Shown piece by piece: positions 21,901 through 54,952 of a stretch of 64,000 nucleotides of DNA (its first letter is position 1; the number at the start of each line of letters is the position of its first letter). The stretch spans positions 27,380-91,379 of the forward strand of contig NW_025935099.1 of the NCBI RefSeq assembly GCF_000764305.2, given 5' to 3'. A program made the position numbers and the translations under genes. Origin of the DNA: Hyalella azteca. Taxonomy: Eukaryota; Arthropoda; Malacostraca; Amphipoda; Hyalellidae. The notes below the pieces were generated by a model. That model made no database searches, had not been told where the DNA came from, and worked only from the letters and a program-made list of their open reading frames with translations.

Positions 21901-24900
21901 TTCGATAAAAAGAGCACATTTAATTCTATCTCAATAATACTTCACTATACTAAGCTAGGAAGACAATTGTATGTATAAGAGTTTGTTTTCTCAACAATGA
22001 CAATAACATCTGTATTTGTAAACATCCTGTCACAAGAATGAAGTTAGGTCAGACCCAGTATGTTGGCGTGACAGAGGAGGCTGTGTGGCAGGAGGCACAG
22101 ATGACACGTACTGACGCACCCAGCGTATGAGCACCACCTGGCAGGTGCCGTACAGGCTCTTGCCAGGACTGCTGCGTAGCTCTGGTAACTCTGCAAAACA
22201 TTCACTTATAAGAATTCAATTGTGAGCAACATGACTCCAATATCCATCTAGAACTAATTCAATTAACAGCCGATGCTCATAAACTGAATAATGTTAACAA
22301 GTTTTACTTTAGTTTATCCTAGAATTTCTTCTTATTCAATGTATAGAGATGTCTCTAAAGAATTTTTTCTACAGACAACTATCAATGAATTCTGTTAAGA
22401 AATTTTTAAATAATTACAGTCGATTAGACACTGTTGGTATATCGATTAGACACTGTTGGTATACTTATATACCTACATCCAACGCAAGAACTAAATTTGA
22501 AATCTATTAAGAGTTTAAGACCAAACATTTCTCAAAAGAGATTCGTTTGCCAAGCAAAACGTTACCTAGGTTGGGTCTGTAGAGCGAGTTGCTGGAGCTG
22601 AAGTTGGGGAAAATGTAGGGCAGGTAGACGGCCCGGAACATAGAGAAGAGGTACGAGAAAGCCACGTGGCAATGCTCTGTCTTGGTGCCGCCTCGCCACT
22701 CTACCTTCCGAACCTGCAGTACAACAGCTGCTCAGTGGCAACTCGCTCACTATGGCAACATTACGGCTATGTTTTAATGACGAAACATTACATTGTTGAC
22801 AGCCTTCCAGTGGAGAGAACATTGTAGTGTAAGCAAAATTTTTTTTATTGAAGCAACATTTTAGTGACGACAATACGCATACACACTAAACACAGAGGTA
22901 ATTGAGACTGCTATAGCAAAGTGTAGCAGTTTGAACTTAAATCCTTAACACGGAAAAATACAAAGCCTTAGCTTGCAGATACCATGGTTTCCATAAAGGG
23001 TAAGAATTACAAGTAGGCCTATCATTGTGATTGAAGTTACCAGCATGTCGTTAAACCAGCATCACATACCTGAGTGACCATGAAGTCCAGGAGAGAAGAA
23101 AGGAAATAAGCTGTGATGTCGTCAGGGGTTTTATCTGTGGATGAGGAGGGGATGATGGCCATGGCTTCAATGGGGGAAACTTTTGTGCCATCGCTGCTTG
23201 TAGTGGGGAGGACTGCGCGAGGGGGAGGAGTGGGGAAGCCAGGAACAAGGGAAGCAAACATGGCGTCCATGTCTGGGGTCTTGCTCTCGCCAACTATCAT
23301 GTACCATAAGATGAATAACCTGCAAGATGAGGGGTAAAGAAATTTTAAAGTGAGGACACTTACAATAGAGGCCACAAAGTTTGTATTTCATGAGAACAGG
23401 CTAATAATGGACTCAATACTAGAATTTGTAATTTTTTATAGCCGGATTTTGGGTTTAACGTTGAACAATTAGGACAAACTTGAAGTTCTCAAAGATTGCT
23501 AAATATTGAAATAAAAAATATTTTCCACAAAGAAACAGAAACTAATTTAGGAGAATGGAACTTAACTCACCGGCATCCTTCCCTGCGGAGCCTTATGTTA
23601 TTGCCCCGATGCAGGAGCTTCTTAAAGACATGGGTGAGGGCATTGCATTGCCAGCGTCGCGTGAAGAGCTGCGGCAGCAAGCACAGCAGTCGCTCCAACA
23701 CAAACAATGACTGCTCCAGGTCCTCTCTGTGAGGCCGCTGCTGGACACTGAAGCCTGGAAATCCATCCATTATGAGAAAAGAAAATACTTTTCAAGGTAA
23801 AGTAGAAGTTTTAGATATATATACTACATACCATCTTCTAAATGAACCAAAAACATATATTAAATATAATTAATATAGATTATCAAATCACCAGTCATAA
23901 ATCAAAGATTTAGCAGTAGCATTTATTTTATAAGTTATTTAACATTCTTTTCAAAAGTCATAAATTCTGATCTAACAGGTAAGGCTGAAATGATCATAAA
24001 ATTCTATTTGGTGACTTCATGTCAAATATGTAGACAAAGCTAAGAGCGTGTTACCCCAGTTAAATATACTACCATATAATTTTAGTGTTCTCCAAATCAA
24101 CCATTAAGACATCAAGTACAGAACCACCTATCCACTAACAACTAATGCAGGGTGCATAAGGATAATACAGTACAACTGCATTGTTATTTCAAGCCATTTT
24201 GCTACTAGTTTATAATAACGTAGTGAATGGTTACACACAGAACAGCAATCACTTGAAGAGTCAAGACATTATATATATGTACGTATATATACCTTTCTGC
24301 TGGAGTTGTGTCTCAAAGAAAATAAAGGCATCATAGAAGACGTAGAATACGGGGCTGTAGTTGGCATCCAAGAAGGATTTCAGTTCAGTCAGCTCACAGT
24401 TATCTGGAAGAAAAAACTAACTTATTTTCAACACACAATAAAGCTGATAGCTAACAAATGCAGCTAAACCATCAAGATCCATTAAGTGATTACCAAAACA
24501 ATAAGATTTATTAGGTGGTGTTATCATAATTTAACCAGCCAACCTTACTGTGGTACCATATTTTTTTTCTTTTTTTTTTTTTGTCTTTCCTCAACACTGA
24601 AGGTTATGATGAACATAGAAATTTAGGAAAATATATTTGAGGATCCAGATGCTTGGCAAATAGTATCAAATTTTATTCATACAAGTTATGAGTGTTCTGC
24701 AGTTGTGGCAGACAGAGACAAATTTTAATTTGCATACAATATATAATGGACCTTTAAAATCCTATTGTGAATATCCTGCTAAGGCTTTCCAAATTTGAAG
24801 GTTCCTGGTAAACAATAAAGTGCAGACAAGACAAAATGTGTTCTTCACTTTTTGCAAGAATCACTATAGGTAGACTGTCTCAAACTAGTCCTATAGGTAG

Positions 24901-27900
24901 ACTCACTCTCAGACTAGTCCTATAGGTAGACTCACTCTCAGACTAGTCCCCAATTCTCACACTAGTCCTTAGTAAGATAATATAATTAGGATACAACTCA
25001 TCTAGAATAACTGGGCTTTTTTAAGTTAAATAATCCCAGTATTTCTTGTGCCTTTGATATCTGTTGCCAAGAATATTTTTAAGTAGGTACAGTACCTATT
25101 AAAAGGCAAATTGCCTTTTAATAGGTACTAGGTAAGTTTGGCATATATTGTAGAATATTTGCCAAATGCTATTGGCTATCCTATGCTACTGTGCTTTTTT
25201 CAAAGTGGCATAGGTTTGTAAGTCTCATTCTTAAAAGCTTGTTGGTAATTTCAAGTCAAGTGCAAAAATTTTGAAAATCAGACCATTGCCAGTTTTGACA
25301 AAATTTCACACAAGTGCTGATTTTTTTTCTAAAGTAACTTAGCTATATTTTTTGCTAACAATATGGAAAATTAGAGAGGCTAGAGATTATCACATGGGGT
25401 GTTAAAAAAGTCATAGATCTTGTGGTGCATAATCTATTCAGGACAATCTGGATTGCTGCTGATTTTAAAAGTCATTCATAGAACTTGTGGTTGTCTTTAA
25501 AAAAATAATAGTCATAAAATTTGTATTAGTATTGTAAAAACTTTTTGAGTAGAATAATTTCAAACATACACAAAAATAGCTAATGACTTTTTAAAAGTTT
25601 AATGACCTGCATACAAATAGAAAGTTATTAATACCGGTAGCTCTCTGGTAGGTACTTATTTAGTTCATCACCATCAGAAGTAAGATTATATACCTACATA
25701 AAATATTTAAACTTGACTTATTTGTTTTTCCATAACTCACAACAACTCAGAATTGTCAAACCATTTTTTTGCCACTTTGATTTTGTTCTTTCAATGCCAA
25801 AATGATTAAGTACATCTCAAGCACTTTAGTTGCAACAGCATTCATAATGAAGAGAAAGGCAATACCATAATATAAAATATTTCTTTGTAGGAGTTTTAAT
25901 CTGATGAGGGAAATTAGTTTAAGAAAATTCAGAATCTGATTTTTTTTCAGTGTTTGGATTGAATAGCAATAATTTTGCAGCAGATTCTGCAATACAAGAG
26001 GCAGTGAAATGTTTAGTTTAGTTGTTGTCATGGCATTTATATTTGGTTTTGAATAAAAAAAATACACTTTCATGTATATGGACTATAATTTTTGCATTTT
26101 AATGGAGTAAATGGACAGTCATTAAAATTATCTAATTCAGAGAATCTTGACTCTTCTCTCATGCAAATATTGAATAATAAAGAATTAGGAGTTACTCTGT
26201 GGTGGCTAGGTGATATCTTATTCTGAATTGATAACTATCAGCAATATACCTATTTTGCCTTTCATAGTTACACACGCAGGGTTGACTAGTTTCTGTGCAA
26301 TTGGCAGACAAATAAATTTTGCTTGCTTGCTAGATGGTTCCTGGAAAGTATTATTATTTTTTTTTTGTGGATGCAAAGATAGCAAATAAATGTTTATGGC
26401 AAGAAAAGAGATAAAGTTTTTCTCTATCATCAAATAATTACTGAAAACAGGCTGCATTGATACCCAACAAAATAAATTATTGTGTAGGTAAGTTGGTAAT
26501 CCTACAATTTTCAGGAAACCAATAGAAGTTAATTTATGCTGGCCAATGGAATGATTGACTGGAACCAAATTGGTCCATGAATTTTGCCAGTGCATCACAC
26601 AAATTTTACAAAAATTACCAAACCACATTTTGTCATAGGCTTTTACTGATCGCAGCAAGCAAACTAAATTTGGTGCCTTGATAAATTGTTAACGTACTTC
26701 AAATGTTTAGTCAAGGAATGCTGCTGCAATAAAATAAATGAGCTTGCATCTGATGCAAATTGACAGAAAATGAATCCAAGAATTCACCAATTTTAGGTTA
26801 TTCTCATATAAAGAATAATTGTATTAAGTAGAATAATAATTTTTCCATTGGCATGGTCATTATTAAACACAGAGAAAGAAAATTATTTTATATTTTTGAA
26901 CATGTTACATTTTATTTTGATAAAAAAGTATAAATTACATGGGTACTATGAGAGTAATTTTTTTTGAATGATCACCCAGAGCTCTACAGAAAACTCCATT
27001 AGATAAACTGGATATGCCACAGAACAGGTCTGCAGTATGTGGATCATCTGGGACATTGTCTCTATCTGCCTTTGATGGCCGAATTGTCCAGTAAAATAAA
27101 CATTAACGGTTGCAAGAACCTAGACTCGTCAATGCAGCTACGATTCCCATAAGAGCACATTTAAAAATCTACAAGGAACAGCCACGGCTTTTAAATATTT
27201 ATGTCGGTCAGTATCAACACTCCAGCTGCAACTCAGCTTTGAGGCAACACGAGAGACCACGATATGTCCAATCACTCCAATGATTATAATACTGGCAATA
27301 ATGAAGATTCAAGTTCTGAGCACTGCACAATAATTATATTATTGTACAGCCATCAGCATAGTATGGTCACAGTCATTGTTAGTAGCGGTACAGTCCACAA
27401 TTACCAAAATCAGAAGTACGGCAATGAGCTCTGAGTAACCTCATCAACTATGAAGACAAATGCCACTACTGAAAAGTACGGTTGTGATAAAACAACCTAC
27501 GGCCAGACTGACCTGATTTTGATTGTGTTCAGACGTTCTTTTTCATGTACTAGAGATGTTTGTCAACATAGGATGTGAACTTGAACTTCCAATTTTAATA
27601 TGAAATGCACCAGTGTTTAATGGCAACCCTCTTTGTACAATATTTTTACCGTAAACTTTTCATACAAGAACTTACAACATGCCTCTACTGACCACTATGG
27701 ATGCAACCTGACTAAATTATATTAAAGCAATCTCTGATCAATCTATAAATAAAATTACCGCAATGTAAACAAATCACCAAAAATCATTATAATCATGTGA
27801 ATCATAATCCAAGAAGAAGTGTAATAGTGGCGGCTGTCTTTTACAATCCTAACTGATGTCTTTGGAGCAATAATTTTCTGTACATTTCCAATAAGTTTTT

Positions 27901-30900
27901 CTCTATCTTCAAAAAATTACTGAAAACAGGCTGCAATGACAATCAACAAAATTAATTATTGTGTAGGAATGTTGGTAATCCTATAATTTTATTGAAACCA
28001 ACAGAAGTTAAATTATGCATATTATATATAAGGCATATTATATTGATATAATTAGCCTCACTCAACAGTTGGAAGGATTTCTAGAAATAATGATTCATAT
28101 TTCTAAGACCAATCCAGTCTGGTAACTTGAGCCATTGTAGCTACTAGCTACTACTGCAGCTAGTAGTGTGGTTCCCCAATGCCTCTCCTTCTTGCAATCT
28201 CTAAGCTGCAAACTATTCAAAACTCTGCCCTTTGCATAGCCATGGGATCTCTTCAAATGGCCTCCACCTCCAACTTACACAGCAAAGCTGAGGTCTTACC
28301 TGTGACCGAACACCTCTCTCTGCTCTGTTCACAGTACCGTAAACTGGGGTAACTTTGACTCCCGGGGTAACTTTGACCACTTTTGGTTTTCTAACAAAAA
28401 CCCCCAAAACTCAAAAACTATTTGACATAGAAAAATTTTGTCAATGGGCATTAAAGGCCTAATACTGAGGCTACAAAAAAAAAGTGGTCAAAGTTATCCC
28501 AGTTTACGGTACCTAGCCAGTGCCCTACGACCACACCATCCCAGCTACCCTATCATCACCCAGACATCGGGGCCCCGTCCCATGAAGCACACGATTCAGA
28601 CCCACTTCCTCCCTTCATTCTCTCACCTGCTGAAGGAGGGGGTCCCTCCCTCTTGACTCCTACTCCACTGCCCTCAACACCCTGCACAGTACTGCCATCT
28701 CCTATTTGGCCTCAGCATCTCCTAACAAGGTTTTGCTGATCCCTGCCCCCTCTTTCTCATTCAGTGAGCTATCCCTCCCCAGGGCGGCCAGTAGCGCCCT
28801 TTTCCAGCTCCACTCTGGCTACTTATTGCAGCTCAACTTGTACCTTGCTTTCATTGGTGCAGCAAACCCTCTCTGCCCTGAGTACCTACAGCGCAATGGA
28901 TCATACCACCCATCACCTCTTCAGCTGCCCATTGCACCCCACCTTGCTAACCCCACTGGACTTCTAGTCTAACCCTGGACCAACTGCAGCATTCTTCTCA
29001 TTGCTCCCATCCTTCTCCAACATCATAGGATCCTCCTCTCCCGGAGCTGCCCTCTTTCCGGGGGCACTTCCGAGCAGCAGTCCAGGGCAATTAACAACAA
29101 CAACTGCATTGTATCTACAGTACTAGCTTGAGTAAATACTAGGGCAAATAAGAGTTACTGTGGAAGGTAAATTACAAAAAGTCTCCTCTTTGTCACCATG
29201 ATTTTAGCAAGCAGTTCAAAAACATCAGCTCATCATGAAAAGGAAATCTAGTATTAAAATCTTATAAACAAAATGAATTAGTGTAGTAGTTATTCATGGA
29301 TATATGGATTATCTTCATCTTGAATTCCACCCTGCTTTACAGTGTGAGTCTCAGTCCACTGTGCAGAGAGTGGATGAATATTGCAAGATCTTTGGCGACG
29401 CTTCAGTAGCAAAATTTATGCCTTCAGAAGATCTTGCCAACACATTTAGATTNNNNNNNNNNNNNNNNNNNNNNNNNNNNNNNNNNNNNNNNNNNNNNNN
29501 NNNNNNNNNNNNNNNNNNNNNNNNNNNNNNNNNNNNNNNNNNNNNNNNNNNNNNNNNNNNNNNNNNNNNNNNNNNNNNNNNNNNNNNNNNNNNNNNNNNN
29601 NNNNNNNNNNNNNNNNNNNNNNNNNNNNNNNNNNNNNNNNNNNNNNNNNNNNNNNNNNNNNNNNNNNNNNNNNNNNNNNNNNNNNNNNNNNNNNNNNNNN
29701 NNNNNNNNNNNNNNNNNNNNNNNNNNNNNNNNNNNNNNNNNNNNNNNNNNNNNNNNNNNNNNNNNNNNNNNNNNNNNNNNNNNNNNNNNNNNNNNNNNNN
29801 NNNNNNNNNNNNNNNNNNNNNNNNNNNNNNNNNNNNNNNNNNNNNNNNNNNNNNNNNNNNNNNNNNNNNNNNNNNNCACACAGCTCGTTCCAAGCTGTGT
29901 GCAAAAATTAAAATTTTCTTAATTAAAAGCTTAATAACTGTTAATTAAAAGCCTAATTAAGTAGTGCTCAATATTCAATAGTGTTCTAATTCAAAGCCGT
30001 GTCGTATTCCAATACAGCTCACACAGTGATCGGAATTTGAACACGTGGATGTCGGAATTACATATTAGTACAATTTGAAGCGCGGTCGGAATACGTCTCA
30101 CCACGTGCCAAATATAGTCACACACAGTGTCAAAATATAGGGATTTGGTAGCCTCACCAAATGGTAGCCTGGTAGGTTTGCATTCTAAAGGCTTTTAAAT
30201 AAATATGGCAACATTTTGTGACATTTCATCATTGCTGGTACGTAGTATGGTGTATTGAGAGTCACCTAAAGCAAACAGAACTAACTTGAGTAATGCATAC
30301 GCCATACGGTTATTTTATTATAGTTTTTAATTTCTGGATGCGTCCTTAATATGTCGGAATATACAGCGTTTACCCTATTTACAGATTGGGTTTTGGAATA
30401 AAGCACAATTAGAAACATCATAATGGTAGTAACCAAAATCTTGCAGCATTGAACTTTTTTTTTCATAGTTAGGGTTAAGACTTGTGGCAACAAATGCACC
30501 CACCAGCCTGATCTCTGTCAGAAAGCATTGAACTATCAGTATCCAAGCAAATATTTTGACAAAAATGGAAATCTTGGACTCAATGATAATTCCCAATGCT
30601 CGACTATCATCACATTTCTCTATAATTAGAAAAATTTCAAATTCAAGGTTTCTGTGTATGAATTGCATTAGTTAAATAATATTGAATGATTACCTATAAC
30701 TCTATATATAGTATAAGCTATAATTATTCAAGTAATTCAACAGCCATGCTGCCATAGCAGACCGCTGAATTCTGAAAGGGAACAAAATGCTTTCCACTTC
30801 GGCACTTCCAGAGTTCCAGTGTTGTGTAATGAACATCAAAGACAATCATTACAAACTCAGGCTGTAAATGGATTTCTAGGGAATATCTCTCTTAAGAAAG

Positions 30901-31615: not shown

Positions 31616-34600
31616 TCATACATTTTGATATTCCGCTTCATACACTTTCTTCAATTTTACTTTTTGCTGGACAGATAGCGCCTTTTAAACAGCGCTAGGC
31701 AGTGTTGATTGCAATTCTGAAATTCTTTCGTAAACTTTTTTCATTTAGTTTCTAAGTATCAACATCCGCACTATCGAGAAAATCATAGCAATAGCCGTCA
31801 CAATAATGACTAAATGCAGAACAAGCGGATGGCGCTCGACTTAATGAGTAAATGTTGTTAAAATATATATTCCTTTCTTATTCGTCGGTCGACCCTGGAT
31901 TACTTCAACGCGATGCCAAGCTGTAACAAATTCGGACATTGACTTCTTGTAATGGAGTTTGCATTCCCACACTCCTGCGTCACTTAACATAGCTGAAGTG
32001 ATGACCATGGAATCTTCTGTTCTTATGTCTACATTTGGAATAGTTTAGTGGATCTTGCCATCGTGATACCATTCCATGACCAGGTCATATTCTTAGAAAA
32101 GTTCAAGACCAGAACTGCCACATCGCAAAGAAAAAGTCTCGCCTTCATGGACAACCAAGGTGTTTTTCGGGGTCTCTACCGTTACACCTATGATGAGAAG
32201 AATTTAGTCTATTCCCGAGGTAAGCGTTACTAAGAATGACCACACTCCGGAATGCCGTGGAGCGCTATCATAAATGAACAAGTCGTCGTCCCGAACTTCT
32301 ACGTTCAACAGATTGGGTGCAGGTGACATCAAGGAATAAACTGACACAGGAGGTGCAACGTGCTTCGAGTTGTTTGAAGTTATCTTGAAACTATTGAACA
32401 ACCATGAAAATTAGGCTTATTTATCAGATTATTTGATTTCGTAGTAAGTTTTCATTTTTACTGACAGCATACGAGTTTCACCTGCCGAAAGTCGGACCGA
32501 ATAATTAACATACAAAATTTGTCGCTTGATTTGCTTAATGATTTCAGAACCTAAAGAGCCACATGGATGCAAATTGCAAGTCCTGGATTCTCGCTGATTG
32601 CCCCCACAGGGTATGCCGTACATGGAAGGTGGGGGGTTTTGGCAAAGACGAACTCTGTGGCCCCATCCTCCTCCGCATGAAGCGTTGCAGCTCCAAGGTG
32701 ACCACGAAGACCAACCTCCCCGTCGAGGAGCGTTGAACATGTCAGGAGGTATATTTTTACACGTTGAGACTACCAAGCCTTTATCTTACTATGAAAATGT
32801 CAAGAAATTAGCCTGTAGTTCGGGCATTTTTATGTAGCCATTTAAAACAGCGATTAAACTAGAGGCAGTTCGGTTTATTTGTACATGAAGATCTTTCCTC
32901 GTCTAGTGAAGAAACCAGTCACGATTGCGATCCTCGGCGGGGGTTTTATATGATAAAAATTGCAATCTTGCTGGATGTACAATAATTGAAGCCACTTTTT
33001 CCAAATTGTATAAAAAATCGATTGTAAAGCCATAAGAGTCTGATGGAGAGTGTTTAAATACGTAGAAATCATTTTTCGATTGAATTTTATAGTACATCAC
33101 TTCGTTTTTTAGCGGATTGTTCACGCTCTTCTGCGCTTCGAACACTAAACATTTTTAATCGTGTTTGGAGGGTGCAGGAAAATTAATTATTGCAAACTTA
33201 TTATGTGCCTTAGGATATGGGTAGAGACAGGGCTAAATTTATACGTACTTGAGGGTGTCGGTCATAGGACTGAGTCTGTTCTGGAAGTTTGGTGACAGAT
33301 TTCCTTCCTCGAACAACTACCAACTTGTGTCAGTCCTTACAAGCTCAAATCTTTTGTAATACGATGCGTGCAAGAGATTCGGAGTCATAAAAACTGATTT
33401 CGGGATTCTGTCAGTGAAATTCATTATTGCAGATTCTTCTTCTCCAAGCTAAAACTTGATTTTACTGCCATATTGTCCAGTCAACGTGAGACACATTTTT
33501 ATTTTGGGGCCTTGATAATTTGAAAGACGAATTCCAAACTTCAAAGTGTGCTTCTCTGTATTCGGTACGAAGTAAATTTTTTGCATATCAGGTTGCCTCT
33601 CGTAAGAAGCGTCTATGGGGAAAAGAATAAATTTGTAACCTACTTCATCATTGCATAAGCGTTCCACCTGCTCTACCTAGTCAGCTGTTTCAAGGCATGA
33701 CGACTTGCATGTCGAGATCATTTCATCGCAAAAATCTTTTGCTCCAAACAGGTCAACGTAACACCAAGGCTTATGAGGATTAACCTTGATGGAAGTCAAT
33801 ACATCGTAGTTGATGTTCCGACAAGTCGTCTGATCATCCGAAGATGTGTACGAAAACGTTCTAGATTCAGGGAGCATCGAAGCGCGTTTAATGGATTCGA
33901 AATCTTTGTTCCTCGTAAATTCTTGGAAAGAATTAGGAATTACCACGTTTTCATGGTAGCGCATTGATGTGATTGTCCAGCTGAGGCAGGGCCGCCCAGA
34001 GTTTGTAAAAAATACAGAGCCCTTGTAGGCTTCATCTAACGTGGTGCAGAGGGGACGTTGATCGTATGAACTGCGAGAAGGCTCACAACCTTCACCCAAT
34101 ATTTTGAATGTAAGAGGTGTCTTAGAGTGGATCGGCTCTGGATGATAAGGCATTAGTTGCCAGAAACGACCATAGATTCCACGATATGAAGATATCGTTT
34201 ATTATTTTGCTACCTAAATGTGAAGAAACCTTTCAGTATCCGAAATTTTAATTTCCAGTTTGATTTGAACTGGTCTATCTAAGTCAAATGAGTTCACTTG
34301 GATATGTTTTTCAACAACATTTTCACACTCTGGTACGCCATCCAAGTTAATAACTATCAATTTCTGACACAGAATGACGGTGGTAACTTTCTTCGTTACT
34401 CCCACGAATACCCCTCTTACAGGGTAGTCGAGTTTCCAACCTCTCGGCTCATAGAAAAGAAAATCGTAAACGTAAAGAGCCGCACTCGCTGGGTAAACTT
34501 CTAAATGTAAAGTGCGGTCGTTAGCACCTGGTAAAAGTTCAAGTTTGGGAGGAACTCCTCCTGGTGTAAATGGAAGATCATCTTCTGCTAAGCTAGCATG

Positions 34601-35866
34601 GAATCTCATGTACTGCCAGATATTCGTTAAGGGCATAACATAATGAATTTGCCTGTAGTTGACGCCATCAAACGGGTAGGGTATGTAACCTTGAAGGCAG
34701 TTCTACCATTCTTGGTTGATTCGTTTCAGGGCGAACAACAATGATGATCGTGTATAAGGAGTTTGAGTTATTGTGAAAAATTTAAACTTTTCCCAGGGAT
34801 CTACATCATAACTATTGAGCGATAGAAGAGAATATTCAGATCCCTCGTAAGACATTTTAAACTTTGTTGTCTTTTTTGTTTTTTGAATTTGTATGTTAAA
34901 ATGCATCCACTGATACGACATGGAAGTCGGATCGAAGTTTTTTGCTGATGAAGATCGCTCAGCTCTTGGGGTCTCATCACGCGCGACATATTTTTCACGC
35001 ACTACTGAAAGATCTGATCCTTTGAAGGAAATTGTAAGTTTGGCAGTTTGTGCTGCGTCGTGGGACAAGGTCAACTTCAGCTGGAAGCTGGTCAAGTCAG
35101 CTGCGTCCGCAAGTCTCATGGCGAAGGATATGTTCAATTCGTCGCCGTAGGGAGGAATGAAGTAGGCCGTTGGAAGCACATTATTTTATCGATAAATAAA
35201 TTATGTAATCGGCGTGACTACAATCTGTTTATCTATTCCTTCAATCACTTGTGGTAACTCCAGCCCAGCTCGAAGCGGTAAATCGCAAGGGATTTATTAG
35301 TTGTCTATGGTCATGCAGCTAAATCGATTCCAGCGGTTGCGTCTCACGCAAGAACTTGAGCAGTCGTCTTGTTTTAAAAAGGTCACATTACCTTGCATCT
35401 CTTCGCCAACAAAAGAAGAAGTGCTTCGGTAAACGCTTCTGCAATACTTTATCGCACAAGACTCCAGCACGGCTTTTCCCTCTTGCATTCGAAAGCACGA
35501 GGGCTCGTCGAAAAAATTCTCTTAATTCTGGCACTCAGTCGAATTTTCGAAGCGTTAACCTTAATATTTTGGATCGTCCAAGAACGAATATTTTTAGGAA
35601 GGCTGAATTCTAGACGGTACATGGGACCATTAAACGCATTTATGGCCGTGCTTTGTGATGCTTTTTCCCCCGCGGTATTCAACTCCCGCACGCGTCAGCA
35701 AACACGGAGCTTGAAAAGCCGGGAGCCCTGGAACCGCGTCCAGACTTGGTATGGAAAACCACCCCACACTGAAGGCCTTGCTATGCGCCGCCAGCGCTGC
35801 CGTGCATTGCCATGCGAATATCACACTAAGGGCATGCGATGCCAAGCAACGATGACGGAGTTACAT
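31616..35866 (-). CDS. Kringle/TSP1/Ig membrane receptor with about 32 in-frame TAA/TAG codons
   Basis: One frame of 1,416 codons ends at TGA 31,616-31,618. In order it shows kringle 1, a beta-rich region, kringle 2, another beta-rich stretch, a TSP1 repeat, two Ig-like domains, a transmembrane helix (HPLVLHLVIIVTAIAMIF) and a Lys/Glu-rich tail of about 50 residues: a type I receptor or adhesion protein in form. I count 24 TAA and 8 TAG codons in frame, no internal TGA and no frameshift. Some lie within domains, e.g. in kringle 1 just before the core Trp (KCV-stop-W) and in Ig 2 on both sides of the MEWYHDGKIH core. Doubled stops (TAATAA, TAGTAA) read as QQ. About 40 ordinary CAA/CAG codons are also used. 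Reading TAR as Gln gives natural sequence throughout; Glu cannot be excluded. The start is uncertain: the frame stays TGA-free to about 36,395, and ATG 35,864-35,866 is only a convenient choice. The region appears intronless from at least 35,640. I do not recognise an orthologue. Confidence 0.75.
31757..31832 (-). other. Transmembrane helix of the receptor
   Basis: HPLVLHLVIIVTAIAMIF followed by SIVRMLIL, about 24 hydrophobic residues, just after Ig 2 and before a charged tail ending at the TGA. Confidence 0.85.
31880..32380 (-). other. Two Ig-like domains
   Basis: The first has SVYSLMSPAPNLLNVEVRDD and RHSGVWSFLV; the second has LVVHEGETFSLRCGSS, MEWYHDGKIH and SDAGVWECKLHYK, with the usual Cys, Trp and D-x-G-x-Y/W-x-C landmarks. 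Three TAA codons interrupt the stretch. Confidence 0.85.
32557..32722 (-). other. Thrombospondin type 1 repeat
   Basis: GGWSSWSPWSCNASCGGGW, HRVRLCQNPP, YGIPCGG, RTCNLHPCG: the WSxWSxWS motif and six cysteines of a canonical TSP1 repeat. No stop lies inside it. Confidence 0.95.
33707..34048 (-). other. Kringle domain 2
   Basis: YKGSVFFTNSGRPCLSW, then TTCRN, KPWCYVDLFG and DFCDEMISTC give all six kringle cysteines in order. The stretch between the conserved blocks is longer than usual. No stop codon lies inside this domain. Confidence 0.9.
34214..35180 (-). other. Two beta-rich domains of unknown family
   Basis: Alternating hydrophobic strands, e.g. ELNISFAMRL, FQLKLTLSH, WMHFNIQIQ, HLEVYPASAALYVYDFLFY and VQIKLEIKIS. 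They recall lectin-like or methyltransf_FA-like sandwiches, but I cannot assign them. A single TAG (after INQEW) separates the two standard-code segments. Confidence 0.5.
35441..35704 (-). other. Kringle domain 1 (spans in-frame stops)
   Basis: Begins at CLLTRAGVEYRG and has the kringle signature GHKC-x-x-W, then ECQN, PSCF and LESCAIKYC, corresponding to CRNP, PWCY and WEYCDIPxC. Five TAA codons fall inside it, one immediately before the core Trp. Confidence 0.85.
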
Positions 35867-36400
35867 CAGGCTCGTGTTTCTTGAGACTTGAATTTCAGGC
35901 GAGAGGACGAGCAGTTTTTGATCAAGGACGGAAACATGGAAATAACTGAAACATATTGCCGCCCTGTTAGTATCATTGATACAATTTCTAATATAGGTTG
36001 GATTACTGCTGAAGTTTTTGGGTGAATAATTTTACAGCGTGCTGGCGGTCCAGTGCTACGCACACCACATTTTACATAAAGATTTTTTTCTAAACATAAA
36101 TGCGTATGTTTCTTTTGCCCGCTATTTTCGTAATGCTCTCGTAATACCAGTTAAATATTATCTCTTTGTTTTACATCTCTGAAAAATAATATGCACAATA
36201 AAATTACATATGAGGATAAATTAGCCGTGATTTTCGAAGCCTCGTGTTAAAACTACTTAACATGCTTGATTGATGGAAAACTAGAAATTTCTGCTAAAAT
36301 TTGCTAACAAATCGAAAAAGCTTAAAATTTGTTGCGGTAAACAAATAAAGGTTTTTGATTATTATGATCTTGAGACCCGAATAATGAATCTGACTCATTT
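35863..36400 (-). other. Possible 5' part of the receptor gene in another frame
   Basis: A frame one base off the main one is free of TGA from about 36,400 to a TGA at 35,863-35,865 and free of all stops from 36,150. It reads HLCLEKNLYVKCGVRSTGP, PPARCKIIHPKTSAV and SLIKNCSSSRLKFKS. It looks like coding sequence with paired cysteines and may be an upstream exon joined by an intron covering the GC-richer stretch 35,710-35,860. Not proven. Confidence 0.35.
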
Positions 36401-36409
36401 CAACATAAT

Positions 36410-37370
36410 TAATTTCGAAATTTATTGAAAAGCCTCGATCGAGAAACTCAATTTGACCGTTAATCTGTTTATAAATGTGAGTGTATACATTATTTAAGTG
36501 TATCAAACAATGTACAAGTATATTACACAAGTTTTTGTTTTACATTCGTTGAGACTGGGATAAGGCTCCTCAAAATCTAGTTTATAAAAATGAATGATAG
36601 AAAATAAATTCTGCAGAAAATGGAACGATATTGATATCGAGAACTTTACTTCTTTGAAATAGTCGAAAAAGCTGCAATTTTACCCCAGAAATAAGTTCAT
36701 AATGTACGCATTGCTTTAGTGGGAAAGTTAAAAACTCAGACCAAATAATTTTTTGGAAAATTCAAGTTAAAAAAATGCGAAGGTTTAGACAATAATGCCA
36801 AATGCTGCAGAAACTATAATACAAGAAATAAGTTAAGTTCGTTTAATTAATGCGTAGTTGCGAATCAAATTATTATTGGAAACGACCGCAGAAGCAAGGA
36901 ATCGTTAATTGTGCTTGTGCAATAATGTAGAATTGATGTGCTGGACGACACAGGAAATTATATTGTTAGAAAATGAAGAGATCTTTAACAAATGGTACTT
37001 TATTTCTAATGAGTTCATATTTTCGAGTCAGTCGCTTGTACGTATAATCGTCCAACTTTTGGCTAGGTTTGAATATCTACCGGGCTTATTATGTTGTTTT
37101 TTATTACTTACCTGGGATGATTAAATCTTAGTCTGATCCAGATAAGTGACCACGCAGAGCTGACTTCGTTTAAGCAATTTATGTATATTTGGCTTCTGCT
37201 TAAATGATATTAGCATGTAGCGTGTCTTGGCAAGCATAACATTTTCCTGGTAACATCAAAGCATCCATACCTGGATTGATATTTCTCTCAAATTCATGAA
37301 CCAGTTCACAACATCATAACTATTAGCACCTAAATAGTTTCTTTGCTATGGAGCATCGCTTAGGAATGTT
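36410..37370. other. No gene recognised
   Basis: AT-rich DNA with frames under 80 codons and no motif. Confidence 0.6.
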
Positions 37371-37379
37371 GGCTGCAGC

Positions 37380-37862
37380 GTGCGACACCCATAGTACCGC
37401 GCCACGGAGGTGTGGTTAAAGAAGATATCCTGCCTGCTGCACCCATGCAGCCTCACCCTCCAGCAGCGCCAGCAGCGGTGCTGTCCGCACTCCTAATATC
37501 CTATGTTGTCCTGCGGTGGTGTTACCGGCTTTCTGCGCACATATTTTATCCTGACATAGAGTAACCGCACTCCTACTCCATATACAGCGGTGGGCTAGAG
37601 CACTCCAACTTGAAGCTGCGATGGAGATACCAGACCTTCTACTTTGTGTTGCGGTAGAGAGAATGCTTTATTTGTTGATGGAGCTGCCTGCACTTTTACC
37701 TTATCCTTCGATGCTACTTTCTGCACTCTTACACTTTTCTGCGGAGTTGCTGTCCATACTTATAATTTATTCTGCAGTGGAGCTACGAGCACTCCCACAT
37801 TATCCTGCGATGCTGGTATCTGAACTCCTGCTTCATAATTCAGTGCTGTACCAGCATTAAAA
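37380..37862. repeat. Degenerate tandem repeat rich in CTGCACTCCTAC
   Basis: Variants of CCTGCGGTGGAGCT and GCACTCCTACATTATCC recur about every 40-45 bases. The 79-codon plus-strand frame at 37,621-37,860 is only this repeat. Confidence 0.65.
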
Positions 37863-40800
37863 GCTCAACCTGATGCGCTGCAAACATGACTTCGCTCCTT
37901 ATTGGAACAACAGGTTTTATACCAGTAAGTCGTCTGTATACTTCTTTAGCAGCTACAAGAACTGATCGCAGCGATTACATAGTTCTTTAAAAAATTTTGC
38001 CACATATCTATACTATTTCAAATGTTCTTTTTTAAAACAAGCCGAAACTCCCAATCCGAAAATGACCTTTGTTTTATTAAATAACTTCACAATTTTCTAT
38101 TATTCAGTCAAGAATATATACTTTAGCACTACTTCCGTTGTTAAAGAGAACATATCGAATTTTTTATCATACGTGTATATCCTTCAAACAATACGCATTC
38201 CGACCCTAATGGCTCCTTCCTTGCGAATCCCGACCCCTTCCGAGGCTCCTCCTGTCACTCGTTCGCCAGTGCGTATCGGCATCGCACGGGGATGTAGCTC
38301 TGAAGCTCCTGTAGCTGCAGTCAGTAGCTCCATCTTCCTTTTGAGGATTTCCTTATCTCCCTGATGTCTTGGAGGAATCGTGTCCTGTGCCTTTCACACT
38401 CAGCTTCAAATTTACAATAAAAACTTGATGCGGTGAAGAGGAAATGCACTTTAAATCTCACCAGGCAGCTTAAAGTTGGAGTGCGCTCAACATTTGTCCC
38501 TTTTTCTATTTGTTGTCCCTATTTCCATGGAATTGTCTATGACCTATTAAGATACCATCCATAGATTTAAGGGACTCAAGGTATTTTTGAGGAAATATCG
38601 ATTAGTTTTAAGTATTAATCTAAGGTCTAATTAGCACACATTCCTTAAATTTGGCCTGTGAATAGGCAAGAAATTTTGTACACTTAAGTATTTCAGAAAA
38701 ACTTTCTATGTAAGCGAGTTTCCGAATTGCTTCATCAATCCTAATTTTATCTGAATGTTTGGTTGCATTTATGGGAAGGCATTTAAGTTTATCGAGGGAT
38801 ATTATCACAGCTTTGAAGTAATAATACCAAATTGTTTTTCTGCGTATACGGTAAGGAATCAACTGCTTTTCTCGCTATCACAACCTTGACGATGATATAC
38901 GCCTCGCAATAATAATCTCTGCTTTTGAACCTTGACCTGCGTAAATCAGCTGCGGTTTTGGAAAGAATAAGTTTTTTTTTCACATTTCAATATCATCGTG
39001 CTAAGTTTCGGTATAATGTATAATCTTAAGTAAAGTCTTATTTTGGTGCATGACTTCGCCTACCAAGGTTTAAGGTTTATGTGTTATAACTTATACATAT
39101 ATAGTCGTAAATTTAGTTCATCTTGGATGCACCGGGGTAAATTTAATCATATTAATTCTTACATTGATAAAATTACAAAATTCAAAACATCTGTTTACAG
39201 ACAATGAAGAAACGGCTTTTGGTTGTACAACATGCATCATTATTTATTGTAATTGACGTTGTGGACGTTGCGATTGGGCTAATTTGAAATTATCTTTTAG
39301 GCTAACCGCTGTAATTTCTCACGAAATATGATGGTTGTACGGGCAACGAAAGTAGCGTTTAAACATAAACATAACTATCTACCCTTTTCAAATAATATCG
39401 TTTTGACTACCTCATAAAGAAAGGAAATGCATACAACCTCAGCGTAGAATGCTTTGCAGCCAATACGGGCGCTATGCCATCCAAATGGAGTAAAGATATA
39501 CTTTACAAACTGAATTCATTACAACAGATCCCTTCCTCATTCCCCAAGTTTTACAGCCATCGTTATATTTACTCTGCAAATACCAAGAGATTCCCGATGC
39601 GCGCGCTTACAAATGGTAATCCGATAATGGGTTCCTTGTCGCCAGCGCGAAGCCTTTTTTCTTAATGGAATTGAGGCAATTGCAGCGAATTCACGAGGTG
39701 TTACTGGATTAAATAATTGAAGCGGCGCTGGCGAGGCCTCGAACAACTTTAAGCAGGGCTCTCAATTAAGGAATTAAAACTTTCTGATAAATTCAGACCC
39801 TTCTCAGTGACTGCATCGCACTGGACCGTGACTCACATGAGCGGCTGTGATCTAAATTCTATACCAGCACAGGAGCCAAACTTGATGAAGATGGCGTGGC
39901 TGTACTGTTATCATCAGTTGTCTTGGCAGTTTAATGGAAATTTTTTTAAATTTCAATGTTTTTGACAAAAATTACAGGTAACAGGCTTATAAAAATTGCG
40001 AAAAAATATTAAAAAGCAAAAAGGACATTGGAATTATGCCACATGAAATAACTGCAAGCATGGCTCGATGAAGAAACATGCGAGATAAAATTCACGTATT
40101 TTTCTTTGTTCTCGTAGAATGTATCTGCACTTGTATGTGAATTAACTAATTTGTTTACGGTATTTTAATTAAGAAACTGATTCCAGAAATTTTTTTACAC
40201 GAGATTCGTACACGTTTTACGCATTTCCAGAAAATTTTGAAACCAATCTGTGGGATTACAGAGAAATGATAAGCCGTCTTTAAAGCGGGTGCCTCGACGC
40301 GGGCTAAATATAGCAGCCATGGCTAGAGGGTTATGAGAGGGGAGATGGAGAAGAGGGGAGATGGAGGAGAGGGATGAAGTGTGAGGGTAGGAACAAGATC
40401 GCTGGTCCAGCGACTAAGACGCGGAAGGTTCGATGCAGCGACGGTTGGAACAAAGGGACTCTGAACACGAGAGTTAACCCAAAGATTTGGCGCCATGCGA
40501 TAACAGGGAGAGATTAAGGCGTCTATTTTAACTTGATTTAATATAAGTTTGTAATCTAATAGCAGTGAATAGACCATAAGAATTAATAGGTTAACATAAT
40601 GAGAGTTTATTCTCTTTAGAGTCAACAACCACAGCTGAAGAGGGGCGTTGACTTATCATTAAGATCAATAAATTTATATCCGTCCACAAGTTATAGGCAA
40701 AAATGCATGCGAAATTGTTCCCTCCAACTATCATATCGTTCTTCATAATTATTTTTCCGAAGCCACGGATACAGAAATACAGAACATTATCGCTATTGAT

Positions 40801-43800
40801 AGGGTTTGAGCGCAGGGTCTAACGTTCAACGTGTTGCTACTGACTTACAAATTACATTATATTATGAACGAATATTGTCCACACTGCTGTTTCCACTGAT
40901 ATTTCAGAAACTCATAAGTCATATATAACTAAAAGTGTATTTTATTTTAGAGGTGTTATATGACTCTACTCAGAGGCTGGCTGAGGTTAACTGCTCATAC
41001 GTACATAGAGAAAATTCTGACTCGGAGTGTAGCATTTAATTCAGCCGGCAGAGAGCTGTGCAATTGCTGCCTCCCTTGGCCACGTAGTATTCCTGTGAGG
41101 TAAGCATCTCAGGGGCTTAATTTCCAAAACTAAAATTCAGATCACCACTCAATATTGAGCACGATTTAGGAATGCCAGTTTCAGGACAGCAACCAAGTTA
41201 TGAGAAGTTTTGTAAAGTACAGAGCAGAGCAGGCTGATTAGCGCTGCTAATGGAGGGGGAAAGTTTTTTTACCCTGAAATCTCACTGATTGCTAAGGAAA
41301 CACTTCAATAAGGAGTCTACACTATTTAACTATTTATTTTCTAATTTTTATACACATAGTTTATTATTCAAGAATGGTTTAAAACAATATTTTTGTTTAT
41401 AAATGTGTCAATACTACTATCGGTAACATTAGGACGCATTGGAAGTGGAAATTACCAATAGATTTAAACTTAAAATCGAAAAGAAAACTTTGAGAAACTC
41501 TGTCCTAGAGAAATAGATTTCTTCCTTCCCTTTTGTTTGTAGCAAGAAACTAGATTTAAGTCAAGAGGCCGCCATGCAAGTTAAAGTTTTACCCCAGCTC
41601 TGCCACCAGTGTTCCTCCAGCAGTGACAAGTGGTGGATGTGTATCTTAGCGCCGTGCCAGACTGTGATAAAGCTGCGAGGATGCGTCACTGGCGCTGAAT
41701 AAAACAGTCAGACGGCTTTATTGAGTTCATAGATTTATCTTCTGATAACAATTTTTTGTAGAAAGTACTGGGTTTATTCGATTCAAGTTCGTTTCGAAAC
41801 ATTAATTCATCTCTTTCCAAAATTCCTGTGAAAATAGTAAAGCTTGCACACCCTTCCATCCCGCGTTGTGCATCCTGCTGATTTATTTGAAATTTTCAGC
41901 AGCAGCCTGCAAGTGGATAATAGACGGACAATTTGAGGAGCAAGTGGACGTTTTGCTGCGCTAAGTGAGTAGACCTTCCCCTCAATTTATTAGCTTTTAT
42001 GCTCACTGACGGCTCGCAATTTAAACCTGGAAAGAGTTATTTTTTAATCCTTCCTTTTTTATTTTTGTGAAAAGTGGAATGTTTATTTGATTAAATGTTT
42101 TTGTTGTTGCTCTCATTTGTTTCTAAATTAATATTGTTAGAATAAATGATGAAGATTTTCATTTCCGTACAATCAAAGATCTTTTTGGCACTTGTAATTC
42201 AAGGAAAACCCAAGTCCTGGGCGTAATAAGGAGGAAACGTTAACGTAACTTCAACAAAATTTAATGTTCACGAAGAAGCTAGGCCTACGCGCATTTTTTT
42301 AGACAATAGATAAAAGTTTAGTCTCCCCTAGTCGCTGAGAGCGTTCTTGCTTTAATATGTAAAATCTTTCCAAATGCTCAAATTGCTCCAGAAAGTAACA
42401 TTATTTACAGGGCCATCTGCACTATCTCTTACATTTATTTGATAAGGTTCACTACAGAGGAGTGTAGATTTTTTTTTGGTGATATTTGCTGCAAGGACTC
42501 CTTATAAATTTGCAGCTTAACTTCCGTGTCCAGACGACAGCAACTGCAGTTCGTTGGACGCAGTGCGCTTTTTCTTGGTCTCGTTATAGTTGTCGGTGAC
42601 ATCGCTCGAGTGAACTGAGATCTCGGGACATTCCGTGCGAAATTTACAGATATTTCTTAGTTTGAGACGCACTATGAACGCATTTCTTTCAGTTTGGGTC
42701 ACTAATTGAGGCTGTAAACGCATTTTTTTTCCAATGCGAAGCCAATGAAAAGATAGGCTTCAAGTAATACTGCATTAAAGTTGGTTTGGCGACGTCTTCT
42801 TGGCTTTATCAACGGTCTTAAAAAACAAGTTTCTAAGTCAGAGAACTATAGCATTGCTGATTGGATGCGAATGCTCATAACTCATAGGAGCGGAAAGCTC
42901 GAAAACTTTTTGGGCTTTCGAGATGCGACAAGTTACCCAAGTTCATGAGAATTAAATAATGACTCACAAAATACTCCATATTATAATAACCATTATGAAA
43001 CATTGTCAAACCACGTGGGTCGGTAAAGAGGTAGGTACGCTTTAACGGATGGCTTCGCGATGTTAAGGATTTTCGTGACTGGTACCGTCTTGCCGGTAAA
43101 TATATCAATTTTGGTGCATTGAAAATTGTTTCAGTTCAGTCAGTTGGAGCCTGCAAACTTACATCGGACACTTGGGAGGAAGACACTCTAAACATCGTCC
43201 ACTATGGCCACATTCCAGACAGGAAAGAGAACTCGCCTACATATGCTCCGCTTGTAATTATAGGGCAAACTAACTTGCCCACAAGGCGCTGATGCTTGCT
43301 AGCGAGACATTATTGACACCCTTACAGTGGATGTAGCCTTTGATACTGTGCAGAAGTGAAATTAGCATTAAGTGACTGGTAGACAAGCTCGAAACACGAG
43401 AGTAGGCTGGTGTCTGCACCGTGCTTCTGGTCTGAGATAGGTACCTACTGGGAGACCCAGTAACTGGTAGGTAGGAATACATGCTAGACATCAGTATGAC
43501 TTGGAGAGAAATGGTATTTAGGTATAGGTAACAAAAATTCTTAAGGAGTTAGAATATTTCTTGGCTAGTCAGGTTATTTAATAACGTAAGTCTTTCCTGC
43601 AAGTCTTAAACGGCTTCCCCCGAATTTAGGAGGGGGCTCTTGGTGATCTATGACATCTCTGCCAGCCTAATTAATGACGTCTTCCCCTGAATATTTCACC
43701 TCTTACCGTGATAGATGTCCGGCGAGCAATTAAGGGTACGGATGAGGGGTAACTGAGGGGAATGCTGTCCCGGTAAGTTGAATATCTCACACTTTTAATT

Positions 43801-49400: not shown

Positions 49401-49900
49401 CTCGTTCATGTATAAAATATGGTGGGAGTAGAACAATTCCTTGATCGTTTTGAAATTAGACTTGATTTAAATAGATCTGTATTTCAGAAGACGTCGAACC
49501 GAAATATCAAACTATGAAATTTCGTATTTTTTACTGTTATATCTAAGTCCTCCACGGCTACCAGGAACGGCGATCGCAACCTCTCGACATCATAGCTTTC
49601 GATCAGTTCGTGATTATATTTTAATAAATTTGGATCTGGCCTCCTAAATGAGATGGTAGCACGTTCTCTTTAAGAACATACTCTGTGACCGAATTATGAA
49701 TAATATGCGTTTAAAAAGTACTTTTTTTAAAGACCATGCACACTTATAAAGGGGCTGGTGTCTCCGATGTTACACATGTACAATGAATTTATTATATTTT
49801 TAAATATTGGAAAAATGTAAGTTTTTTAAATTATTAAAAATAGGAATTTTTTATTATTTTTTTATTCTGTCAATTGATTCGTGCGTTGTCTTCGACTATA
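46480..49900. other. No gene recognised
   Basis: Short frames only. Around 47,715-48,027 a minus-strand stretch (TTSWGWVVIAHVHHDVHACF) is open for 85 codons but has no known motif. Confidence 0.5.
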
Positions 49901-49945
49901 CGCTAGTGTTCAAAATTTCAGATAAATTGGACAGGTAGAAGTATG

Positions 49946-50606
49946 TTAAATATCGATTAACAGATTTGCAGCAGACAGACAAGCAAGAAGTGAAGTTAAA
50001 GAGAAGTGTGGTGAAAATTGAAGTGCAATATATAGGAACGCAAAGGTTCTAAGGTGCAGATTTGCGCTAATAACCTGTATATATATACGTTCTACAATTC
50101 GTATGAGGCATAACTTCATTTGAGCCCAAATCACCTCATCGTTTCGATTGAAAATAATGGGATGTGACTGAAGTATAGGATGGAGTGTGAGAAGCTCAAA
50201 CGGAGTCAGTATAGGCATGTTGAAGACTCGCAATGTTTTTTCAGTGACAGGCAGATCATTTGAAAATTCTCGAAAAATTATGTTGAAAATGTTGAGGAAC
50301 CTACTGCGGTGGTTTCAGGTATGAATGGTAATGGGGATTATATAGTTGAAGTGTACGTATTATGATTTTAGTAGCAGTGAATTTTGTTTTATAGTAGACG
50401 AAGTATTGATTGGAATATAGTACCGTGAGAGATGATGCATCTGTTGCACATGGGCTCATTGAAGCCAGAAGTTGGTTAAGCGAGAATAAGATGAAACGGA
50501 GATTTTCTCTATACTTTATTTTGTTGTCATTTGATGATGATATTGGACGTTGGTCGTAAGATTTGCGTAAATAAGTTTTCGTGAGTAAATTGGGAGTGTG
50601 CGCCAT
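49946..50606 (-). CDS. Two adjacent minus-strand open frames, possible gene
   Basis: 50,301-50,606 (101 codons, starts MAHTPNLLTKTYLRKSYDQR) and 49,946-50,233 (95 codons, with hydrophobic FAFLYIALQF and LTSLLACLSAANLLI) use different frames. They could be two exons of a membrane protein, but no clear splice pair or homologue is seen. Confidence 0.2.
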
Positions 50607-52427: not shown

Positions 52428-54423
52428 ATCAGATAGGATTCCATCCGTATAATACGTTAATTGGAACACCGCAGACTCGGAAATGATAGGTACTTTATTA
52501 CGTTAACATTCAAGAACAATCTCTGCCATTTCCGCTCTTAGCTCAGTGAGAAAGACACAATTTACATAACTTGCAATAATCCATTCTTTGCAATGTGCCC
52601 CCTTTCCGCGATGACTAAATGACATTAAATCCGGGAGAAGTGAGTATGTTTTTGAAGACAGAGAGATCGACGGTGTTATTTGAGCATCCAGACGTCCGAG
52701 TTGCTACCGTTCTATACACAAATTGTGAACAATTTTTTAAGAGGGCAAAATCACACCTAATACGATTCTTAACGCTGCTGAACCAAGTGGACATGGTAGA
52801 AATTTGTCGAACATGATTCCGCAAATGCTGCGGTCAACAGAACTAGAATAATTTTGGGACATTATGTATTTGACAAGCATTTCGGATGTTTCAATGTAAG
52901 GAAGTAAACATTTTTAGCTTAACAATACAATTAATGTAAAATTGGACCTGTTTAATTGGACACTTCGATCATATTTAAAAAAACGCCGTCGAAAAAATTG
53001 AACCTCGGCATTTCAAACAGAATTTTCAGAGGGATCTTCACTAAAGCATTGGAAGAACTGAGTACTGCTTTGTTCTATTACTCTACCAACGCCCAACAGC
53101 TTTTTTTTAAAGATATTGGCAGCCGAGCACAGTTGCCTCGAGCGAACAGGCATCTCCTCCAAACGGTCAAGATCCTTTCATCCAGTCTTTAGGAGTCTTC
53201 TGGGAGGGTTACAATGCTGTTGATGTTTCGCGATTGTTTGTTGACTTTTGTTTGATAACATAATAGCACTTTTAAATGATAACTAATTAGTTCACTAACA
53301 TTTGCGCTAATAATTCATACATGGATGCCGAGTGTCGACCAGCGTTAACTCAGGTTGCCTGCCATATATGGAAACGTATTGAGCACTGTTGATAAATTTT
53401 GACGTCTCATGCTGAGCAAATGGTCAGCTGGGCTAAATGGTTAGCTAAATGGTCAGCTGTATAGCGTCAAATGGTCAGCTGTTACCTGACGCTACATAAT
53501 AAAAATTACAGAAACCGGGTGTAAATTTATAACTTGATTCATTGTATACGTCATGGTTAACTCATTGTGCTTGTACACAAATACCTCAATGTTATTTTTA
53601 GTTGATCTCGTTCTGAATGGCGCGGGTGTAAGTTCCGTGATTGCCTCAGCTGTTCACCTGGTCGGAAACTCGGAATACAAAGATATAAAACCATATGACG
53701 ACAGTAACTTTTGCTTGAAGTGGCTTGTGATTTATTTAGGATTGCAATATCGATTTGTAATTCATTTCTCGTTACAGCGTCGTGGATAAACCCGCACATC
53801 TTCCTCCATCGACCTTGGCTTTGTGGTTTGGAATTTAAAATTAAGTATTTGTGCCTGGTAATTCCAAGTGGATGTGTGCTTCAGATTTATTTCTGTCCTG
53901 TTTTTTTCACTTGAATGAATTTGAGGTCGGTGTTGGAGCGGAGGCTTGACGGGAAAGATTGTCGACAATAACCAGTAACGTTGTAACCGGGTTACATATT
54001 TATTTTTATCGCATAATAAATCCTCAAATTTTCAATTTATTCATAATTATATTATACCAATATTTATGTCATATTTTTAGGGTAATTATAGCTATCTTGT
54101 CTTATTTTAGGGTAAGGGAACGACCTCTTATAGTGAACACGTGGTCTTGGCATGACTGGCTGCAATACTTCCGGCGAGTCGTTGTACATATTGTATATAA
54201 ATATAGTAGGGTGTTAGGAAACTGAATTTCACTAATCGTTGGAGTTCTTGTGTTACTGTCTACTCTCAATTCATTTCCTTCTTCGATTAATCAAGTTTTG
54301 TTCATGACGCATTAATGTTCCATTATTGTGTTTTGTATAGTACATATGTTTATTCAATTACTTATACTTTTTTATTTTCTTAGTTATATTTTATCTTCCC
54401 ATGTTCCTTAATTCCTTGTTTTA

Positions 54424-54533
54424 AGCGCATTTTCTCATTTATAGAAAAAATGCACTATTATGCTCGTCATGCACGTCTGTCTCTCCGTCTGTCTGTACGT
54501 GACTTCATGTTTTCGTCGACGAGAAAATGCGCT
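54424..54533. repeat. 110-bp inverted-repeat unit
   Basis: AGCGCATTTTCTC at the left and GAGAAAATGCGCT at the right are exact inverted 13-mers enclosing about 84 bp; a small MITE or a structured element. Confidence 0.75.
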
Positions 54534-54952
54534 CTCTGTAACTCACTGTAGTGAGTACTGAGTTATATTTTTTGTTACTCTGTACATTTTCTGGAATTGT
54601 AATCTGATTTTCAATATAAACCTGCAACCTTCGCTTATTATTTATTCATGGCCTCTGCGCTAATAATTGAGTTGCATGAGAGACGCAAGAAGGTCTTATA
54701 GGGTTGACCTCGCCCGCAAACGCGCCGACAGCAACATCTACATTTTTGAAGATCACTGGCTAAGGAGCCCTAAATCTCGAGTCCAGCGTAACGATGCGCA
54801 TTACGAGTGTTAAATTAATCATACAACAGCTGTTCTGCTTTTTTGAATGAGTTCTAATTTCATTTCGCGGAATTTTAGAAGCAAGCGCCGATGCTTCAGC
54901 GATATCCACCTAGGATTCTGTTCTGTAAAAGTTTTTTTCGAGTTCGCGTGGG

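Follow-up and report, generated by a model that had tools for sequence, protein, structure and literature searches.

Organisms that use the code of NCBI table 6 have tRNAs with UUA and CUA anticodons, some phages have suppressor tRNAs and stop-recoded late genes, and readthrough in animals usually concerns one stop per gene and yields a minority product. Stop-codon readthrough is known in mosquitoes and other animals (PMC5100048), and other articles consulted are PMC5304391, PMC10553269 and PMC11687900; the open-licence PubMed Central literature that was searched yielded no description of an animal nuclear gene using stop codons as ordinary sense codons. A candidate for such a gene lies in the amphipod Hyalella azteca (assembly GCF_000764305.2, contig NW_025935099.1), within a stretch of 64,000 nucleotides (C1291:27380-91379), hereafter called the window. 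It is an intronless frame on the minus strand (31616..35866), extending from an ATG at 35866 to a TGA at 31618-31616, that is interrupted by TAA and TAG codons (collectively TAR, or UAR in RNA) and is paired here with suppressor-type tRNA genes found elsewhere in the same assembly.

A recount upheld the composition given in a preliminary description of the locus: the frame has 1,416 sense codons (1,417 counting the stop), 24 TAA and 8 TAG but no TGA inside, a TGA at its end, and no visible frameshift over its entire length. The seven same-phase standard-code frames of that description become, by arithmetic, nine open reading frames of at least 60 amino acids between 32204 and 35845, and the shortage of TGA on which it relied is real, the codon being absent here and present 23–47 times in every other reading frame of this stretch, five in all, even if the expected number is 16.7, as computed from the codon-position base composition, and not about 25. 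Other codons of the frame include 31 CAA, 15 CAG, 15 CGA and 23 TGG. The TGA-free run comprises 1,592 codons (36394-31616), whereas the next longest within the window has 372, and when the 91-kb contig was simulated 60 times with a third-order Markov model the longest runs measured 438 on average and 654 at most; a chance origin was rejected on these grounds, and an antisense artefact was rejected because the opposite, plus-strand frame has 58 stops. Random single-step mutation of the codons present would be expected to yield TGA in 25–30% of the stops created, and the probability of finding none among 32 is 1.3e-5 to 9e-5. Thus the three stops and the indels that should accumulate in proportion in a neutral pseudogene were not seen, and neutral decay was rejected, as was a mutational process of the kind of repeat-induced point mutation (RIP) or acting on CpA, the corresponding indices being normal (TA/AT 0.76, CpA 1.03). 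A long frame with conserved domains, TAR codons inside and TGA only at its end is what the locus displays, and the reading in which TAR acts as sense and TGA as stop within it is supported, as far as a sequence can speak to decoding. The choice of the ATG at 35866 as start is an assumption, the reading frame staying open further upstream in a TGA-free extension (35867..36394, minus strand) that is rich in TAR (9 in its first 150 codons) and is probably not coding.

The translation with TAR read as Gln contains domains of animal type, in keeping with the preliminary description, and the Pfam comparison proposed there placed the kringle and the thrombospondin type 1 (TSP1) domain above their cutoffs and the immunoglobulin (Ig) models below theirs. 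All of the following features are on the minus strand. An N-terminus resembling, by eye, a signal peptide (35786..35866), whose codon 2 is TAA, is followed by kringle 1 (residues 58-142; 35441..35695), which scores 36.7 bits with PF00051 (cutoff 34.3), retains its six cysteines and resembles the HGF and ROR1 kringles in PDB. Five TAR codons fall within this match, at residues 79, 91, 102, 104 and 115, the first of them in the C-x-x-W motif. Kringle 2 (approximately residues 607-720; 33707..34048), with limits set by eye, is free of TAR; Pfam marks two kringle stretches in the frame at expectation values (E) up to 1 and one at E up to 0.01. The TSP1 domain (residues 1053-1102; 32561..32710) scores 28.5 bits with PF00090 (cutoff 21.6) and matches thrombospondin-1 in PDB at E 3.4e-22. 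The Ig domain (residues 1232-1303; 31958..32173), which holds two further TAR codons at residues 1258 and 1274, is recognized by four Pfam models (E 3.3e-5 to 7e-4), all with scores under their curated cutoffs. A predicted transmembrane segment at about residues 1347-1367 (31766..31828), with a hydropathy maximum of 2.86 at residue 1348, precedes a C-terminal tail that is some 49 residues long and contains two TAR. The frame matches PDB sequences of thrombospondin-1, HGF, ROR1 and UNC5, and a role in adhesion or as a receptor may be surmised for the predicted protein. A search with the whole frame against proteins gave eight matches, each covering 4–7%, which the Pfam lists place at the TSP1 region, with one perhaps at the Ig domain; no viral relatives and no relatives in prokaryote genomes were found for the frame. 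The predicted structure of residues 150-583 had a mean pLDDT (predicted local distance difference test) of 32 and was not used further.

As to the residue specified by TAR, the kringle scored 36.7 bits with Gln, 36.4 with Glu, 37.6 with Lys, 36.7 with Ser, 36.5 with Leu, 32.8 with Tyr and 29.1 with Trp, indicating that Tyr and Trp are unlikely meanings; A-to-I editing, which would convert TAR to Trp, was rejected for its poorer domain scores. The domain scores by themselves cannot tell Gln, Lys, Ser, Glu and Leu apart, and the Gln assignment of the preliminary description, although compatible with the three TAR-TAR pairs (residues 190/191, 555/556 and 1026/1027), is not singled out by them. 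Gln is nonetheless the likeliest meaning, being favoured by the Gln-like body of the tRNAs described below. The third base of TAR is A in 24 and G in 8 cases, similar to the 31:15 of CAA and CAG (CAR; Fisher p 0.61) and deviating from the mutation expectation (p 0.02).

The check proposed at the outset, for tRNAs in this assembly whose anticodons are UUA and CUA, proved positive. In the 519 Mb searched (4,890 contigs), a pattern of the tRNA-Gln anticodon arm carrying UUA found one match and its reversed control also one, so that the pattern match alone is at chance level and the case stands on the complete tRNA present at that site. Contig C4613 carries, between 68.6 and 82.9 kb, three clustered tRNAs with a Gln-like body, all on the minus strand: one with the anticodon UUA (C4613:69560-69631; tta according to ARAGORN), scoring 73.5 bits with the Rfam tRNA model, the best of eight compared; one with CUA (C4613:68613-68684; 67.8 bits); and one with UCA (C4613:82826-82896; 60.6 bits), which is one base short. 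A DNA search with the UUA tRNA reached eight places, the three on C4613 at 93–100% and five on C323, C3723 and C2991 at 76–77%, the latter being ordinary host tRNA-Gln genes (four CUG, one UUG; 67.3–69.3 bits). The UUA and CUA tRNAs form complete cloverleafs on a tRNA-Gln body, with all 21 of 21 stem pairs intact, and differ at 16–20 of 72 bases from one CUG and one UUG host tRNA-Gln; in 4–5 stem pairs both bases have changed, and in no pair has just one of them done so. The intact stems and compensatory changes point to selection on structure and not to a single stray mutation of an anticodon. The D arm is identical to that of the host tRNA-Gln, the acceptor arm is like that of vertebrate tRNA-Gln and the T arm differs; a run of TTTT or longer occurs within 10 bases downstream of both genes. 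Charging of these two tRNAs with Gln would be expected from their body. A stretch of 8 kb next to the UUA gene contains repeats like those of the window and of C2558, no other tRNA and no TGA-free frame of more than 355 codons (it was not searched for domains), and a host repeat family is common to C4613 and the window. The host repeats beside the tRNAs indicate that C4613 is amphipod DNA bearing structurally conserved suppressor tRNAs distinct from the normal Gln tRNAs.

The host itself, a standard-code amphipod, was not anticipated by the preliminary description, whose proposal of a UAR-sense, UGA-stop code is supported within the frame and not as a code of the whole genome. Indeed, all 137 Gln codons in the other genes opened are CAR and none is TAR, with 44 of them in a NACHT frame of the same contig together with six exons of a semaphorin-5-like gene and 93 in four NACHT frames; the latter end in TAA, TAA, TGA and TAA, and the NACHT frame of the same contig also ends in TAA, so that TGA is not the sole stop. 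The Gln codons and stop usage therefore indicate the standard code in every gene opened. The same-contig NACHT frame, of 653 codons, lies about 33 kb to the left of the UAR-containing frame, beyond a gap of N; the 20 best of its 25 protein matches are all from Hyalella azteca, the first being 100% identical to contig C3273 over residues 1-628 of 688, which identifies the genome as that of this species. In Hyalella the NACHT genes constitute a large family (65 scored candidates) of intronless frames, each about 630 codons long, a partial tandem copy being present on the same contig (C1291:22114 and 23799-25757). The semaphorin-5-like gene (C382:1-10000) has normal introns and, over the six exons that were read, follows the standard code.

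How, then, could a frame with 32 stops be expressed in such a genome? The frame would be a Hyalella azteca gene whose translation requires that UAA and UAG specify an amino acid, Gln being the likeliest, and the readers would be the Gln-type suppressor tRNAs UUA and CUA of C4613. With these tRNAs expressed and charged, ribosomes would pass all 32 UAR codons and stop at UGA, yielding a single-pass membrane protein of 1,416 residues with two kringles, a TSP1 and an Ig domain; in their absence the TAA following the ATG would halt translation at once, and tRNA expression would constitute an on/off switch. Indeed, since codon 2 is TAA, if the ATG at 35866 is the start there would be no product unless the stops are suppressed, which would make expression dependent on the tRNAs. 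The activity of these would presumably be restricted to some tissue or stage because ordinary genes must be spared. The start codon, Gln charging, expression and this restriction are presumed elements of the scheme. The simplest view of a frame needing UAR to be read, and of tRNAs reading precisely UAA and UAG, in an otherwise standard-code genome is that they belong to a single system. Judging from sequence, the chances are about even that Hyalella azteca itself translates the UAR codons of this gene as Gln, perhaps in certain tissues or stages only, and uses UGA as its stop. A tentative extension, for which the balance is somewhat unfavourable, is that two genetic dialects coexist in one nucleus, with a hidden set of UAR = Gln genes, of which this receptor-like gene would be the first seen, readable only with dedicated suppressor tRNAs.

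Several observations weigh against decoding by the host. For the parts outside the domains no relative came to light, a protein search with residues 1-1040 giving no match; this search depends on shared exact words, so that distant relatives may escape it. The G+C content at third codon positions (GC3) is 0.42 in the frame and 0.57–0.60 in four host NACHT frames, codon usage differs from that in a pair of host genes (chi2 totalling 142 for 41 degrees of freedom), and the asymmetry between codon positions is modest: when the frame was cut into 150-codon chunks, 4 of 10 exceeded the 5% chi-square limit of 12.6, in a test without a usable background. In composition the left flank (24-30 kb) has a rank of 0.98 relative to host segments and lies, like the initial 12 kb of the window, at the upper edge of their range (ranks 0.98–1.00). 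The UCA tRNA fits badly, because it would read UGA, the stop of the frame itself; this copy may be decaying, or the tRNA set may be broader than the one gene. Furthermore, this is the sole UAR-coded frame known here, which makes the reason to keep suppressor tRNAs weak unless more such genes exist, and wherever the suppressors act, ribosomes would likewise run past the TAA or TAG ends of host genes.

The frame is single-copy in the genome, and the adjacent stretch 36400-41400 is unique except for 52 bases. To the right, and not separated from the frame by any N, lie an amphipod repeat (49699..50017) common to contigs C2558 and C4613, 14 kb away, and a second (54410..54575) common to three sampled host loci; the tetranucleotide composition of the frame and its right flank is inside the range spanned by 66 segments of host DNA, taken from two contigs. 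To the left, a run of 424 N (29453-29876) lies 1.7 kb from the frame, and another N run is present at the start of the contig (1-4974). No Pfam domain was found in any of the six frames of 36.3-51.3 kb, and neither polyA nor a target-site duplication was noticed by eye around the frame. A spirotrich nanochromosome was rejected, none of the telomere repeats being, by eye, in the right orientation. Minisatellites are dense in the first 25,000 nucleotides of the window, where 43 of 52 tandem-repeat rows begin.

The main rival is a gene recently acquired, or mis-joined, from an organism with a UAR code. In its first form, which is possible if rather doubtful, the frame would be a recent insertion from a UAR-sense eukaryote, such as a ciliate living on the amphipod, and dead where it lies, the suppressor tRNAs serving something else. 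The pattern of UAR as Gln and UGA as stop is that of ciliates (code 6), the frame is an orphan outside its domains, and the differences in codon usage and GC3 just mentioned point the same way. Yet the kringle, Ig and TSP1 domains look animal-type, and the Arg codons are rich in CGN (45 of 70), unlike those of ciliates, which are dominated by AGA. The lack of TGA and indels would moreover require that little time has elapsed, since an unconstrained frame could have diverged by at most 4.7% from the absence of TGA alone, a limit that falls to 0.9% assuming 0.1 indel per substitution. The flank without Pfam domains and without visible marks of insertion does not favour this origin either, and an insertion would account for the frame and not for the UUA and CUA tRNAs. 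In addition, Tetrahymena CRMPs are described in PMC9670195 as lacking the kringle found in apicomplexan ones.

In the second form, ciliate DNA would have been misjoined to an amphipod contig during assembly. This is unlikely: the draft status of the assembly and the N run near the frame make it conceivable, but the frame is joined without N to the two host repeats on its right (49.7 and 54.4 kb), the standard-code NACHT gene lies on the same contig past the gap, the right flank is not gene-dense and, here too, the UUA and CUA tRNAs stay unexplained. Furthermore, among 96 matches to an alpha-tubulin query, 20 of which carry any stop, none has more than two TAR without an accompanying TGA; ciliate marker genes were thus not encountered with this query and, as far as the search extends, no ciliate tubulin appears to contaminate the assembly.

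Very unlikely is a species-wide ambiguous code in which UAR would mean Gln inside many Hyalella genes and stop near mRNA ends, the wrong genes having been sampled. Context-dependent stop codes exist in ciliates (PMC4967479). The suppressor tRNAs sit in the nuclear genome, and TAR occurs within the matched stretch in 20 of 74 NACHT rows; on the other hand, in all three of these that were opened it stands at the frame end, none of the 74 has more than two stops inside, and the host Gln codons and the tubulin matches speak against such a code. Finally, that the frame is a neutral pseudogene or processed copy is highly improbable, for despite its stops and lack of introns it combines 32 stops free of TGA with an unshifted frame, a kringle 1 complete in cysteines and no RIP or CpA signature, and no parent gene was found in the genome among nine candidates scored.

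If decoding by Hyalella azteca is correct, an animal would have gene-specific code switching, the dialect genes would escape standard annotation, since gene finders overlook them by design, and would be switched at the level of decoding, and the tolerance of a cell for suppressors of its own stops could be put to the test in a species that is a standard test animal of the laboratory. Even with a recent transfer, the transfer of a UAR-coded gene would be unusual and the suppressor cluster with three anticodons would still have to be explained.

Compared with known proteins, the frame has the domain types of the HGF/plasminogen and ROR kringle proteins and of the TSP1 domains of thrombospondin and UNC5; unlike all of these, it has the order kringle-kringle-TSP1-Ig-transmembrane segment, is intronless and UAR-coded, and has no full-length relative found. 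As in mosquito and other animal readthrough, in-frame stops would be passed, but here there are 32, all needing efficient passage. The ciliate, dasycladacean and hexamitid code (table 6) likewise has UAA and UAG as Gln and UGA as the only stop, whereas it covers the whole nucleus and the other Hyalella azteca genes examined are standard, with TAA and TGA ends. With respect to the phages having stop-recoded late genes, the setting differs in being a cellular animal genome with no Pfam domain in the 15 kb to the right of the frame; it resembles them in that a stop-rich subset of genes and matching suppressor tRNAs would be lodged in an otherwise standard translation system.

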